Source: Streptosporangiaceae bacterium (GTDB lineage Bacteria > Actinomycetota > Actinomycetes > Streptosporangiales > Streptosporangiaceae). Taken from it: DNA of 32,836 nt. Location: positions 1 through 32,836 of the forward strand of contig JASHQL010000269.1 of the NCBI GenBank assembly GCA_030039155.1, in the 5' to 3' direction. The notes under the pieces are model-generated. The model ran no database searches, was not told the origin of the DNA, and worked only from the letters and a program-made list of their open reading frames with translations. Below, piece after piece: positions 2,828 through 32,038 of the stretch (positions are counted from its first letter, which is position 1; the number at the start of each line of letters is the position of its first letter). The position numbers and the translations under genes are program-made.

Positions 2828-3516
2828 GACAGCGCCGCCGACCAGGCCGCAGCCAGCCGGAGGGCAACCTCGACCAGGTGATCGGCCCGGCGGGCCGCTG
2901 CGGGCTCCTCGGCAATGGTCTCGGCCAGCAGCGCGTCAACGTTCACGCCAGCCGCCTCGGCCTCGGCCCGGCCGCCGGATTCCAGCCACCGCTTCAGCTG
3001 CGCGCCGTCGACCTCGGGATGGAACTGCACGGCCAGGTCGCGGCCGGCCGTGAACGCCTGCACGCACAGCGGCGTGCTCGCCAGCACCCGCACGCCGGCC
3101 GGCGGCAGGCACATGTCACCGTGGAACTCCAGCCACGGCCCGGCCGGGATGAGCCCGGCATCGACCGTGTCTACCGTGGTCCAGCCGATCTCCTTGACCG
3201 GCGCGGGGACCACCTTGCCGCCGTAGGCAACGGTGAGCGCCTGCGCGCCGAAACACACCCCGAGGACGGGAACGAGGGACTCCCGCACGTCCCGCAGCCA
3301 CCGCAACTCCGCCTGATTGGCCGATGCATAGGCCTGGTCGTCGTAGATCGCGTACGCCGCGCCGAGCAGCACCACGTGGTCGAAGTCAGCCGGCGGCGGC
3401 AGCGGCCCGTCCGCCGGGTACATGTGGGTGCTGACCTGCCAGCCGCGGCCGGCGAAGGCGTCGGCCAGGAACCCGGCGTCATCGGTGAGGTGATGGCGGA
3501 CCACAAGCACGCGCAT
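2824..3516 (-). CDS. class I glutamine amidotransferase (GATase1) family protein
   Basis: MRVLVVRHHLTDDAGFL...VPVLGVCFGAQALTVAYGGKV (nucleophile elbow GVCFGAQ) ...AVQFHPEV (catalytic HPE). Start taken at internal ATG 3516 rather than ORF start 3549. Confidence 0.9.
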   Translation of the reverse strand: MRVLVVRHHLTDDAGFLADAFAGRGWQVSTHMYPADGPLPPPADFDHVVLLGAAYAIYDDQAYASANQAELRWLRDVRESLVPVLGVCFGAQALTVAYGGKVVPAPVKEIGWTTVDTVDAGLIPAGPWLEFHGDMCLPPAGVRVLASTPLCVQAFTAGRDLAVQFHPEVDGAQLKRWLESGGRAEAEAAGVNVDALLAETIAEEPAAARRADHLVEVALRLAAAWSAALS

Positions 3517-4854: not shown

Positions 4855-4885
4855 CTAGGCCGTGCCCCTGCGCGGCACGGCCTAG
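4855..4885 (-). terminator. perfect 12-bp inverted repeat at the rtcB stop codon (candidate terminator or processing hairpin)
   Basis: CTAGGCCGTGCC-cctgcgc-GGCACGGCCTAG. The rtcB stop TAG is inside the stem. No T-tract. Confidence 0.5.
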
Positions 4886-6051
4886 TCGCCCTTCACGTTG
4901 ACGATCTGCCGCAGCGTGTGCGTGATCTCTACCAGGTCGGCCGCGTCCGCCATCACCTGGTCGATTTGCTTGTACGCGGCCGGGATCTCGTCAAGGAAGG
5001 CGTCGGTGTGCCGCCACTCGATGCCCGCCATCGCGGCCTCCAGCTCGGCCCTGCTGAACTTCCGCCGCGCGGCCGACCGGCTGAAGGCGCGGCCAGCGCC
5101 GTGCGGCGCCGAGTTCAGCGCGAGCCGGCTGCCCTTGCCGGCCACCACGTACGAGCGGGTGCCCATCGAGCCGGGGATCAGCCCTGGCCTGCCAGCCGAC
5201 GCGTCGATCGCGCCCTTGCGTGACAGCCAGACCTGCTTGCCGAAGTGCTCCTCCCGCGCTGTGTAGTTGTGGTGGGTGTTCACCGTCTCGACGGCCTCGG
5301 CCTGCTGGCCGATCCACTGCTGCAGGCAGTCGGTGACGCGCGCCATCATCTCGGCCCGGTTCAGCAGCGCGAAGTGCTGGGCCCAGCGCAGGTCCCTGAT
5401 GTAGGCCCAGAACTCCTCGGTCCGCTCGACCAGGTAGGCGAGGTCGGGGTCGGGCAGCCGGATCCACCACTTCTCGCACAGCCCGCGGGCGATCTTGATG
5501 TGCTTGTTCGCCAGCTTGTTGCCGACGCCGCGCGAGCCCGAGTGCAGGAACAGCCACACCCTGTCCTGCTCGTCCAGGCTCACCTCGATGAAGTGGTTGC
5601 CTGAGCCGAGGCTGCCGAGCTGCAGCCGCCAGTTCCCGGCAATCTGGTCCGCGCTTGCCGCACCGTCGAGCCGCTCAAGCTCCTCGATCCTGGCCTGGGT
5701 GCCGGCCCTGTCGACCGAGGCGTTGTGCTTGCCCGCGGACAGCGGGATCGCGCGCTCGATCGCGGTGCGCAGCCCGGCCAGCGGCCCGCGCGCGGCAACG
5801 TCCTGCGCGGTGAACTGGGTCCTGACCGCGATCATGCCGCAGCCGATGTCCACGCCGACCGCGGCCGGGATGATCGCGCCGAGGGTCGGGATCACCGAGC
5901 CGACCGTCGCGCCCTTGCCCAGGTGCGCGTCCGGCATCAGCGCGAGGTGCGGGTGGATGAACGGCATCGAGGCCGTACGCTCCGCCTGCTGCCTGGTCCC
6001 GTCGTCAAGTACCGACGCCCAGTTCATCAGCGTCTTGCTGAGCTGCTCCAT
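4882..6051 (-). CDS. rtcB: RtcB family RNA-splicing ligase
   Basis: MPDAHLGKGATVGSVIP, GVDIGCGMIAVRT, LGSGNHFIEV, HSGSRGVGN, GSMGTRSYVV, GAGRAFSR. Start taken at MEQLSKTL (ATG 6051), inside ORF 4882..6165. Confidence 0.95.
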   Translation of the reverse strand: MEQLSKTLMNWASVLDDGTRQQAERTASMPFIHPHLALMPDAHLGKGATVGSVIPTLGAIIPAAVGVDIGCGMIAVRTQFTAQDVAARGPLAGLRTAIERAIPLSAGKHNASVDRAGTQARIEELERLDGAASADQIAGNWRLQLGSLGSGNHFIEVSLDEQDRVWLFLHSGSRGVGNKLANKHIKIARGLCEKWWIRLPDPDLAYLVERTEEFWAYIRDLRWAQHFALLNRAEMMARVTDCLQQWIGQQAEAVETVNTHHNYTAREEHFGKQVWLSRKGAIDASAGRPGLIPGSMGTRSYVVAGKGSRLALNSAPHGAGRAFSRSAARRKFSRAELEAAMAGIEWRHTDAFLDEIPAAYKQIDQVMADAADLVEITHTLRQIVNVKGD

Positions 6052-6100
6052 GGTCCTGCCTCCGCGCAGGCACGGTAACCAGGTGCAGCCGGTCAGCGCA

Positions 6101-7015
6101 TCAGGATTTCTGCTGCGCATCGAGCTGCCGCTGTGCTTCGTCCAGGATCGCGACGACCTGAGCACCGAACCTGACGTTGCACGGATGGCTGGCCGCGGCG
6201 TCCGGGATGGCTGCCTTCAGCTCGGTCAGCGCAACCCTGGCCGCATCGGCCGCCTGAGCGGTCTCCACCGGGGCCTCAAGCCGTCCCGAGTCTCCCCACA
6301 GCGACATCTCGTAGCATTCCGCCTGCGGTGTCGCGTTCAAGGTAGTCGTCACCGTGCTGGTCGCGCCGCCGTCGTGCCCGAACGTGAGATGGACAAGATC
6401 GGCACGCCCGCCGACCGCGGCGACCCTGTTGACCGGCCCGAGGCAGGCCGTCAGCAGCGAGACCGCGTGCGGTCCCAGGTCCCAGAGCGCGCCCTTGTCC
6501 CGCCGCCACGGGGTGTTGAACGGGTTGTCCGCGCGCAGCGCGTCGCCGAGCCAGACCATCGAGCCGCTAGTCCAATCGCTGCCGGCCACCTGGGCCAGCC
6601 AGGCCCTGACGTCTGGCTGGTAGCGGGCGGTAAAGAAGACCAGCGCCGCGACGCCGGCCTCGTCCACGGCGTCGGCGAGCCGCTGTGCGTCCGCGGCGGT
6701 CAGCGCGATCGGCTTCTCCAGCAGCAGGTGCTTCCCGGCGCTGGCCGCGCGCACCGCGATCTCGCTCTGCACGTCGGGCGGAACCGAGAAAACCACTCCG
6801 TCGACGCGGTCAAGCAGATCGTCCACCGACTCGCAGGCGGTCACGCCGAAGCGGCCGGCCAGCGCGGCGGCGGCGCCGGCGTTCCTGCCCCAGACGGCTT
6901 CGAAGGAGATTCCCTCGGCCGATGCCAGGGCCGGCGCATGGCAGATCGTGGCCCAGTAGCCGGTGCCGACGAGCCCGAAGCGGAGCGGTGCATCGTTTGT
7001 GTTCATCGTGACCAT
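6101..7015 (-). CDS. Gfo/Idh/MocA family oxidoreductase
   Basis: LRFGLVGTGYWATICHAPAL (Rossmann), KHLLLEKPIALTAADAQRLADAV (EKP motif). Start 7015 or 7006. Confidence 0.92.
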   Translation of the reverse strand: MVTMNTNDAPLRFGLVGTGYWATICHAPALASAEGISFEAVWGRNAGAAAALAGRFGVTACESVDDLLDRVDGVVFSVPPDVQSEIAVRAASAGKHLLLEKPIALTAADAQRLADAVDEAGVAALVFFTARYQPDVRAWLAQVAGSDWTSGSMVWLGDALRADNPFNTPWRRDKGALWDLGPHAVSLLTACLGPVNRVAAVGGRADLVHLTFGHDGGATSTVTTTLNATPQAECYEMSLWGDSGRLEAPVETAQAADAARVALTELKAAIPDAAASHPCNVRFGAQVVAILDEAQRQLDAQQKS

Positions 7016-30671: not shown

Positions 30672-32038
30672 ATGGGGCAGACGGCGCAGCAGCTGACCGC
30701 GAGGCTGGCCGCGGAGCAGGCAGGCAGCAGGCTGCCGTCGGTGACGGCAGGGCTGGCCAGGGATGGCGAGCTGATCTGGTCGGCAGGCCGCGGCCGGGTC
30801 GGCGACCGCCAGCCGGACTCCGGCGTGCAGTACCGGGCCGGGTCGATCACCAAGAGCTTCGTGGCCGTGGCCGTGCTACGGCTGCGTGACCAGGGCAGGT
30901 TCAGCCTGAACGACACTGGGCGCGTTTCCGGCCACGGCGCAGGTACCACTACTCCAACGTCGGGTACGCACTGCTCGGCCAGCTGCTAGGCCGTGTCCCG
31001 CAGGCCTTGGTGGATGCGGGCGGCGATCCAGGCGGCGTCCGGCAAGGCGGCGGAGGAGCCAATAGTGGTGCTATTGGCGACGACGACAACGCCGCCGGTC
31101 GTCGTCTGGGCGCCGATCCGCGCCGCCGAAGGTCTGCGGGACACGGCCTAACCAGCCAGCACGGCACGAGCTGGGAGCAGGTCGTCGCCGACGAGGTACT
31201 CACCCCGCTCGGGCTGAGCCGGACCACGCCGCGCCCCGTGCCACCGCATGCGAGCGGGTTCGCCGTGCATCCGCATGCGGACCTGCTGCTGGCCGAGCCT
31301 GAGCACGATGCGGGCGCGATGGGGCCGGCCGGCCAGCTCTGGACCACGGTCGCCGACCTGGCGAAGTGGGCGGCATTCCTGGCCGGCCAGCGCGGCGACC
31401 TGCTGGCCAAGGACACGCTGGCGGAGATGCGCGAGCCGGCCGGCGTCGACGACATCCCTGGCCAGCCCTGGGCACTCGGCTACGGCCTCGGCTTGCAACT
31501 GTGGAACTCGGGCGGGGTCAGGCTGTACGGCCACTCGGGCTCCATGCCCGGATTCGTCGGCATGCTGCAGATCGCCGAGGACGGCACCGCGGTGATCGTG
31601 CTGGCGAACTCCACAGTGGGCGCGGACATGACGGTGGCGGCCGACCTGCTGAAGATCCTGGCCGAGGCCGAACCCGCCGGGCAGCCTGAATGGTCGCCGC
31701 GGCAAGTCCCCGATGACGTCAGGGCGATGCTCGGCACCTGGTACTGGGGACCGGCGCCGTTCACCGTGTCGCACTCCGGCGGCCTGCTGCACCTGACGCA
31801 CGCGGGCGGCGGCCCGCCGGTCAGGTTCCGCAGGTCCGGCGAGACCGGCGACTGGATCGGCCTGGACGGCTACCACGCGGGGGAACCGCTGACGCTGGTG
31901 ACCGGCAGCGAGCGATCCGTTCCCGTGCTCAATCTTGGCTCTTTTCTTTACACCAGGACGCCCTACGATGCCGCGGCGCCGGTGCCTGGCGGGGTTGACC
32001 CGGCCGGCTGGATGGCACCACCCAGCCGGCCGGGCTAG
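30672..32038 (+). pseudogene. serine hydrolase (beta-lactamase family) disrupted by internal deletion/frameshift and a 160-bp insertion
   Basis: N-terminal frame (30672..30989) has SITKSF (SxxK). The C-terminal frame has YHYSNVGYALLGQLL...HGTSWEQVVADEVLTPLGLSRTT...YGHSGSMPGF. The frames differ by 2, and the segment expected between SLND and YHYSN is missing. Confidence 0.85.
30987..31150. mobile_element. MITE-like non-autonomous element with ~20-bp TIRs and TA target duplication
   Basis: Left TAGGCCGTGTCCCGCAGGCC (30987-31006); right GGTCTGCGGGACACGGCCTA (31131-31150), reverse complement identical at 19/20. Central GCCAATAG-tggtg-CTATTGGC stem (31058-31078). Excision leaving one TA joins LLGQLL directly to TSQHGTSWEQVV. 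Confidence 0.85.

Follow-up and report, generated by a model that had tools for sequence, protein, structure and literature searches.

A hairpin of 160 bp stands between two TA dinucleotides inside a serine hydrolase gene of a Streptosporangiaceae bacterium, within a window (the whole stretch of DNA that was analysed) of 32,836 nucleotides. What is this sequence, how did it arrive there and what keeps its shape? The original prediction, made from the letters of the window, described a MITE-like element with a TA duplication, inserted in frame. We consider it quite probable that positions 30987–31150 are a MITE-like hairpin that was mobilized in trans by an IS5-type transposase, is kept as an RNA structure and was inserted at a TA of a hydrolase gene that is now a pseudogene. 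It has an empty counterpart site, TA at both ends, inverted repeats of about 18 bp and other copies, and its family has a conserved length, core and fold.

From TA to TA the element spans exactly 30987–31150 (164 bases), scoring 149 bits with model R1 on the plus strand, which is the strand of the G·A core. The left copy of the TA target duplication (30987–30988) lies within a CTA leucine codon, at the site that is empty in orthologues, and the right copy occupies 31149–31150. The left terminal inverted repeat (TIR), GGCCGTGTCCCGCAGGCC, covers 30989–31006 on the plus strand and the right one 31131–31148 on the minus strand; the element ends, TAGGCCGTGTCCCGCAGGCC and the reverse complement of GGTCTGCGGGACACGGCCTA, are identical at 16/16 and 19/20 positions. 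The element strand folds into a single near-perfect hairpin at −135 kcal/mol, an energy reached by none of 200 dinucleotide shuffles (mean −79.2, s.d. 3.9; z = −14.4). Towards the tip, the 5′ side of the conserved core (GGCAAGGCGGCGGAGG, family consensus GGCAAGGCGGAGGAGG; 31041–31056, plus strand) and its 3′ side (GACGACGACAACGC; 31079–31092, plus strand) together form G–C pairs separated by tandem G·A steps. Between them stands the apical stem-loop GCCAATAG-TGGTG-CTATTGGC (31058–31078, plus strand), the pairing of which is kept and the sequence of which varies among copies. The position, TIRs, whole-length hairpin and apical stem originally described are therefore confirmed, as is the single-hairpin RNA fold that was to be checked. 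At 164 bp the element is too short for a transposase, and the open reading frames across it contain no transposase domain. It falls within the length of MITEs (about 100–400 bp, with no transposase gene), ends in TIRs with a target-site duplication, is missing from orthologues and is multicopy in relatives; by the usual features it is a MITE. Elsewhere in the window, at 4856–4884, there is a 29 bp perfect palindrome, TAGGCCGTGCC-CCTGCGC-GGCACGGCCTA, whose outer bases are those of the element TIR. Its right end falls at the stop codon of a minus-strand ORF (4882–6165), so that the palindrome could be a miniature made of TIRs only, or a terminator.

The host gene encodes a serine hydrolase (PF00144 and DUF7586), homologues of which occur in much of the bacterial family; 23 such loci were retrieved. 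On the plus strand, a remnant of the N-terminal part (PF00144, 30660–30917) is read in frame 0 up to the junction of another lesion (30918–30919), where about 54 orthologue codons are missing and the frame changes. The gene resumes in frame 2 at 30920–30986 (ARFRPRRRYHYSNVGYALLGQL; its last codon is the CTA at 30986–30988), and the C-terminal part (the end of PF00144 and DUF7586, 31151–32038) follows the insert in the same frame. Twelve aligned orthologues have no gap at the insertion point (e.g. LLGALLASKHGQPW); thus, the site is empty in them and one TA represents the duplicated target. Deleting 160 bp plus one TA, as originally proposed, restores LLGQLL-TSQHGTSW at the junction. The claim of an in-frame insertion stands in part: the 54 codons of the insert are open in the frame of the C-terminal part, but the gene is already broken upstream. 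About 160 nt are missing there, which is not a multiple of three, and owing to this deletion and frameshift the open frame through the insert preserves no protein; the hydrolase gene is now a pseudogene. The upstream deletion may be a mis-assembly in the draft metagenome-assembled genome (MAG; 599 contigs, 88% complete). The missing ∼160 nt (window 30909–30990) are located some 70 bp upstream of the insertion and their size is near the 160 bp of the element; this likeness may be chance, and we see no mechanism behind it. The open 54 codons could suggest that the element is normal hydrolase coding sequence, but this is extremely improbable, as the aligned orthologues lack it, which already refutes the idea, and the same kind of sequence is found elsewhere in this genome and in other genomes, outside the hydrolase gene.

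A search for other copies and empty sites, which the original prediction had proposed, yielded relics in the same genome and copies in relatives in addition to the empty orthologues. The window genome, an incomplete draft MAG, holds one intact copy and relics of about 110 bp (C318, with the core half lost) and about 70 bp (C44). A full-length copy that is 85% identical to the window element (L034) is found in another family of the same order, and many genomes of the order contain matches to the element, some to its interior only. With a covariance model of the family, built from 15 copies, each genome searched among the relatives yielded 2–28 matches when both strands were counted. The length of the copies is almost constant, mostly 163–166 bp. 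Two kinds of variant hairpin were noted: L082, L084, L086 and L088 (211–217 nt) have a second hairpin of about 50 nt inside the 3′ core side, and, in the window genome, a 155 bp hairpin at L006 (G000:C341, about 3241–3400) starts at a stop codon and has a near-identical TIR, GGGCGTGTCCCGCAGGCC, without the conserved core.

The range of the family extends further. When a DNA pattern of the core was searched over GTDB genomes, the matches listed included Nocardia, Rhodococcus, Pseudonocardia, Micromonospora, Propionibacteriaceae, Frankiaceae, Sporichthyaceae, Streptomyces, Nocardioides, Actinopolymorpha, a Micrococcales MAG and a Byssovorax MAG, and almost all of the matches listed are flanked by the full hairpin. 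In a phylum survey with the model, in which 11 candidates per genome were scored, at least 6 of 246 genomes were positive. The copies in the Byssovorax MAG (Myxococcota; L180, L190, L222 and L243) have a core identical to the actinobacterial one and different, shorter arms; they could be mis-binned contigs. No match for the window copy was found on plasmids, and L044 has partial relatives on five Streptomyces plasmids; the core pattern had no match among viral contigs, nor did a typical family copy among phage records. Searching Rfam with the window copy and with the elements at eight further loci gave no family, even at a cutoff of E = 0.1. Neither the core sequence as a bacterial element nor an actinobacterial element of this kind was found in the literature outside subscription journals, and a 2024 review of prokaryotic MITEs mentions neither actinobacteria nor Streptomyces (PMC10969869). 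The element belongs to a widespread actinobacterial family that was found neither in Rfam nor in the literature searched and is apparently undescribed.

The constant part of the family is GCAAGGCGGAGGAGG and GACGACGACAACGC on both sides of the variable stem, although the copies found with the pattern share it by construction. As a helix, this core consists of G–C pairs separated by tandem G·A/A·G steps, three times, and the G·A steps would be expected to adopt a sheared geometry. The G–C pair of the first step is replaced by C–G in L075, L067 and L084 and that of the second step in L077 and L085, double changes that represent few independent events; the third G·A step is replaced by Watson–Crick pairs in L238, L201, L240, L192, L210 and L177. 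The core variant of G006 and G012 is longer by a G on one side and a C on the other. A coding role of the core was rejected because the stems of different copies differ by one base, which breaks reading frames. A G-quadruplex (GG-N-GG-N-GG-N-GG), which we also considered, may still form, although some copies lose a GG tract and the paired model explains the double changes.

Is the fold under selection, and on which strand? The covariation set, aligned without regard to structure, comprised 28 copies from other orders. The hairpin predicted on this same alignment, which favours its fit, has 36 pairs, 26 of which are changed on both sides; 88.4% of cells are paired, compared with 67.6 ± 1.0 after shuffling, and the covariation score of the whole hairpin is 0.537, compared with 0.182 ± 0.013 for shuffled and at most 0.154 for slid versions. 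The first copy set independently gave a similar whole-length hairpin. All 99 distinct copies (99/99) have the better RNA fold on the core strand, by an average of 21 kcal/mol. With a neutral loop in place of the core, better RNA pairing on this strand persisted in 33 of 35 representatives; in this arms-only test the G·U pairs numbered 186 versus 54 and the Watson–Crick pairs 1417 versus 1415 (Wilcoxon p = 4.5 × 10⁻⁷, which is merely indicative as the representatives are related). A count of G·U versus A·C (86 versus 18) is biased by the predictor and was set aside as evidence. Since copies occur in both orientations to genes, mutation linked to transcription or replication does not readily account for the strand preference. 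It points to selection on the RNA of the core strand, single-stranded DNA being less likely. The shape of the family copies has probably been kept as RNA on one strand, so that they would be more than junk DNA.

The placement of 84 copies was classified with a home-made, rough gene caller: 24 are in convergent and 11 in divergent sites, 21 lie along the core strand and 27 against it, and one is intragenic. Almost all of these copies are thus intergenic, and many touch a stop codon. The element starts with TAG from either side, so that insertion into the TA of a stop codon restores a TAG stop. As there is no orientation bias to the neighbouring genes, a simple cis-acting role in mRNA is not supported.

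How the element moves is suggested by its ends. A TA is duplicated at the target, usually preceded by C (45/58) and followed by G (40/58). The family ends vary by lineage and include GGG(A/C)GTGTCTGACAAAT, GGCCCTGTCTCGAAGTCC, GTGTCGTGGAAACG, GTGGCCTGTCGCAT and others. Copies with GGG.GTGTC-type ends at TA or CTAG targets match the IS5-family (DUF4096) insertion sequences (ISs) of relatives, and Micromonospora copies have GAG(C/A)GACCGGC ends and a TNA duplication with all four bases at N (TAA, TTA, TCA and TGA). In the IS5 family, the IS427 group typically duplicates TA and the IS1031 group TNA. An automatic call of a TNA duplication at L180 proved to be spurious. The best match between IS and element TIRs in relatives is 16/18 bases, between a 941 bp IS in G077 (TIR GGGCCTGTCTGACAAATG) and the family TIR common in its genus (GGGAGTGTCTGACAAATG); this IS has a two-frame transposase scoring 138 and 163 bits against the NCBIfam IS5 model (NF033580). 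The IS5/IS427-type partner originally suggested is therefore supported by relatives with matching TA-flanked GGG..TGTC ends. The other candidate, an IS630/Tc1-mariner-type enzyme, is rejected: a search of the window genome found no DDE_3 domain, and the DDE_3 loci of relatives lack a TIR of such a type.

Domain, protein and pattern searches for a partner in the window genome (88% complete) found no DUF4096 or DDE_3 gene and no match to the partner transposase; mobilization in trans is thus what we infer, and the element was probably moved by the transposase of another element. No IS with the exact TIR of the window element, for which the original prediction had proposed to look, was found, and none of 15 regions inspected contained an autonomous IS with the Micromonospora TIR. 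A pattern search of three genomes for autonomous ISs with family TIRs returned element copies, miniatures and singletons only; a gene near one singleton match, which from its sequence we take to be IS481-like, was judged to be unrelated to the family. The miniatures at L309, L310 and G006:C1:5051728–5051788 are 59–61 bp long and consist of two TIRs only, L309 with a TTA duplication. At L130 (G006:C1:6982460–6983504), a 947 bp DUF4096 IS adjoins a family element and ends at its TA.

As these are described, the element resembles the ERIC, Correia and RUP repeats in architecture, being a TA-flanked mobile hairpin (PMC2229807, PMC10969869), but it is distinguished by its conserved tandem G·A core, phylum-wide range and exchangeable ends. 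In the consulted parts of the sources, ERIC (IRU/RU-1) of enterobacteria and vibrios is about 127 bp long with TA ends, forms one long RNA stem-loop and is multicopy and mostly intergenic; RNA folding and orientation-dependent RNase E effects are reported for it in Yersinia (PMC2229807, PMC10969869, PMC2267715). The present family differs from ERIC in its 18 bp IS5-type TIRs, 164 bp length, tandem G·A core and two kinds of target duplication, and also in lineage, as those parts of the literature searched do not place ERIC in actinobacteria. Correia/NEMIS of Neisseria is a small MITE that forms a hairpin, has TIRs and ends in TA, and its transcripts are cut by RNase III (PMC2229807, PMC10969869); in contrast to our family, it is reported in Neisseria, has an IHF site in its long form and, in the sections consulted, is described without a tandem G·A core. 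RUP of Streptococcus pneumoniae is a 107 bp MITE at TA, for which trans mobilization by an IS was deduced from shared TIRs; unlike our family, its partner is IS630-Spn1 and, in the section consulted, no conserved internal motif is reported (PMC2229807). With the IS427-like and IS1031-like groups of the IS5 family the element shares matching TIRs and TA or TNA duplications, but it has no transposase. Since it is alike to the IS compared in the TIR alone, it is not a simple deletion of that IS.

Which reading do these observations favour? The best one is a trans-mobilized MITE that carries a selected RNA structure, which we hold to be quite probable. A more novel reading, at a little under even probability, is a mobile structured RNA: the conserved unit would be an RNA rod of tandem G·A steps that spreads through the actinobacteria, and with its core alone into relatives in a myxobacterial MAG, by swapping DNA ends among IS5 subgroups, and a function of the RNA in the host or in mobility would keep the one-strand fold under selection. 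It is unlikely that the element is an ordinary DNA-level MITE without an RNA role, in which the palindrome reflects its origin and the pairing comes from intrastrand correction or from two equal transposase sites. The TIRs, the TA duplication, the matching IS5-type ends and the lack of orientation bias to genes would agree with this, but non-Watson–Crick G·A steps recur at the same positions in different orders, covarying pairs occur far inside the TIRs, and the arms favour one strand via G·U pairs, which DNA-level symmetry would not yield. A primarily cis-acting RNA (a 3′-end stabilizer, a terminator-like hairpin or an RNase site), selected at gene ends and dispersed by transposition, has a low probability of about one in five. 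The strong RNA fold and the intergenic placement, often at a stop codon and with more convergent than divergent sites, speak for it; nevertheless, both orientations to neighbouring genes are about equally common, stop codons may in any case be where the TA sites of high-GC genomes accumulate, and the window copy sits in a pseudogene. Equally doubtful is the idea that the RNA or hairpin serves the mobility of the element itself, for instance if the transposase or a host factor uses it as cofactor or target, with the core as a replicating unit that recruits IS5-subgroup ends. In its favour, one and the same core is flanked by TIRs that are unrelated, and the target duplication beside it can be TA or TNA, but the existence of TIR-only miniatures of about 59 bp and of a coreless element sharing the TIR indicates that the ends were able to move without the core.

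Under the best reading, that of a trans-mobilized MITE with a selected RNA structure, an IS5-family transposase (IS427-like, with a TA/CTAG target) made elsewhere would recognize the inverted repeats and move the element, which would be kept as an RNA structure. Read-through from neighbouring transcription on the core strand would produce the long hairpin, the middle of which would be a rod of three tandem G·A steps between G–C pairs. Selection would preserve this RNA shape, and the outer ends would change to suit different IS5-type transposases. Our best guess is that a host RNA-binding protein or RNase recognizes or processes the read-through RNA, which would make gene-end insertions tolerable.

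MITEs are usually regarded as leftovers of insertion sequences that are defined by their ends. In the present family the ends change and the middle is conserved, with apparent strand-specific selection on RNA, in many actinobacterial orders. The persistence of a bacterial miniature element as RNA thereby becomes testable, and annotators could then label many gene-end hairpins that have so far had no explanation.
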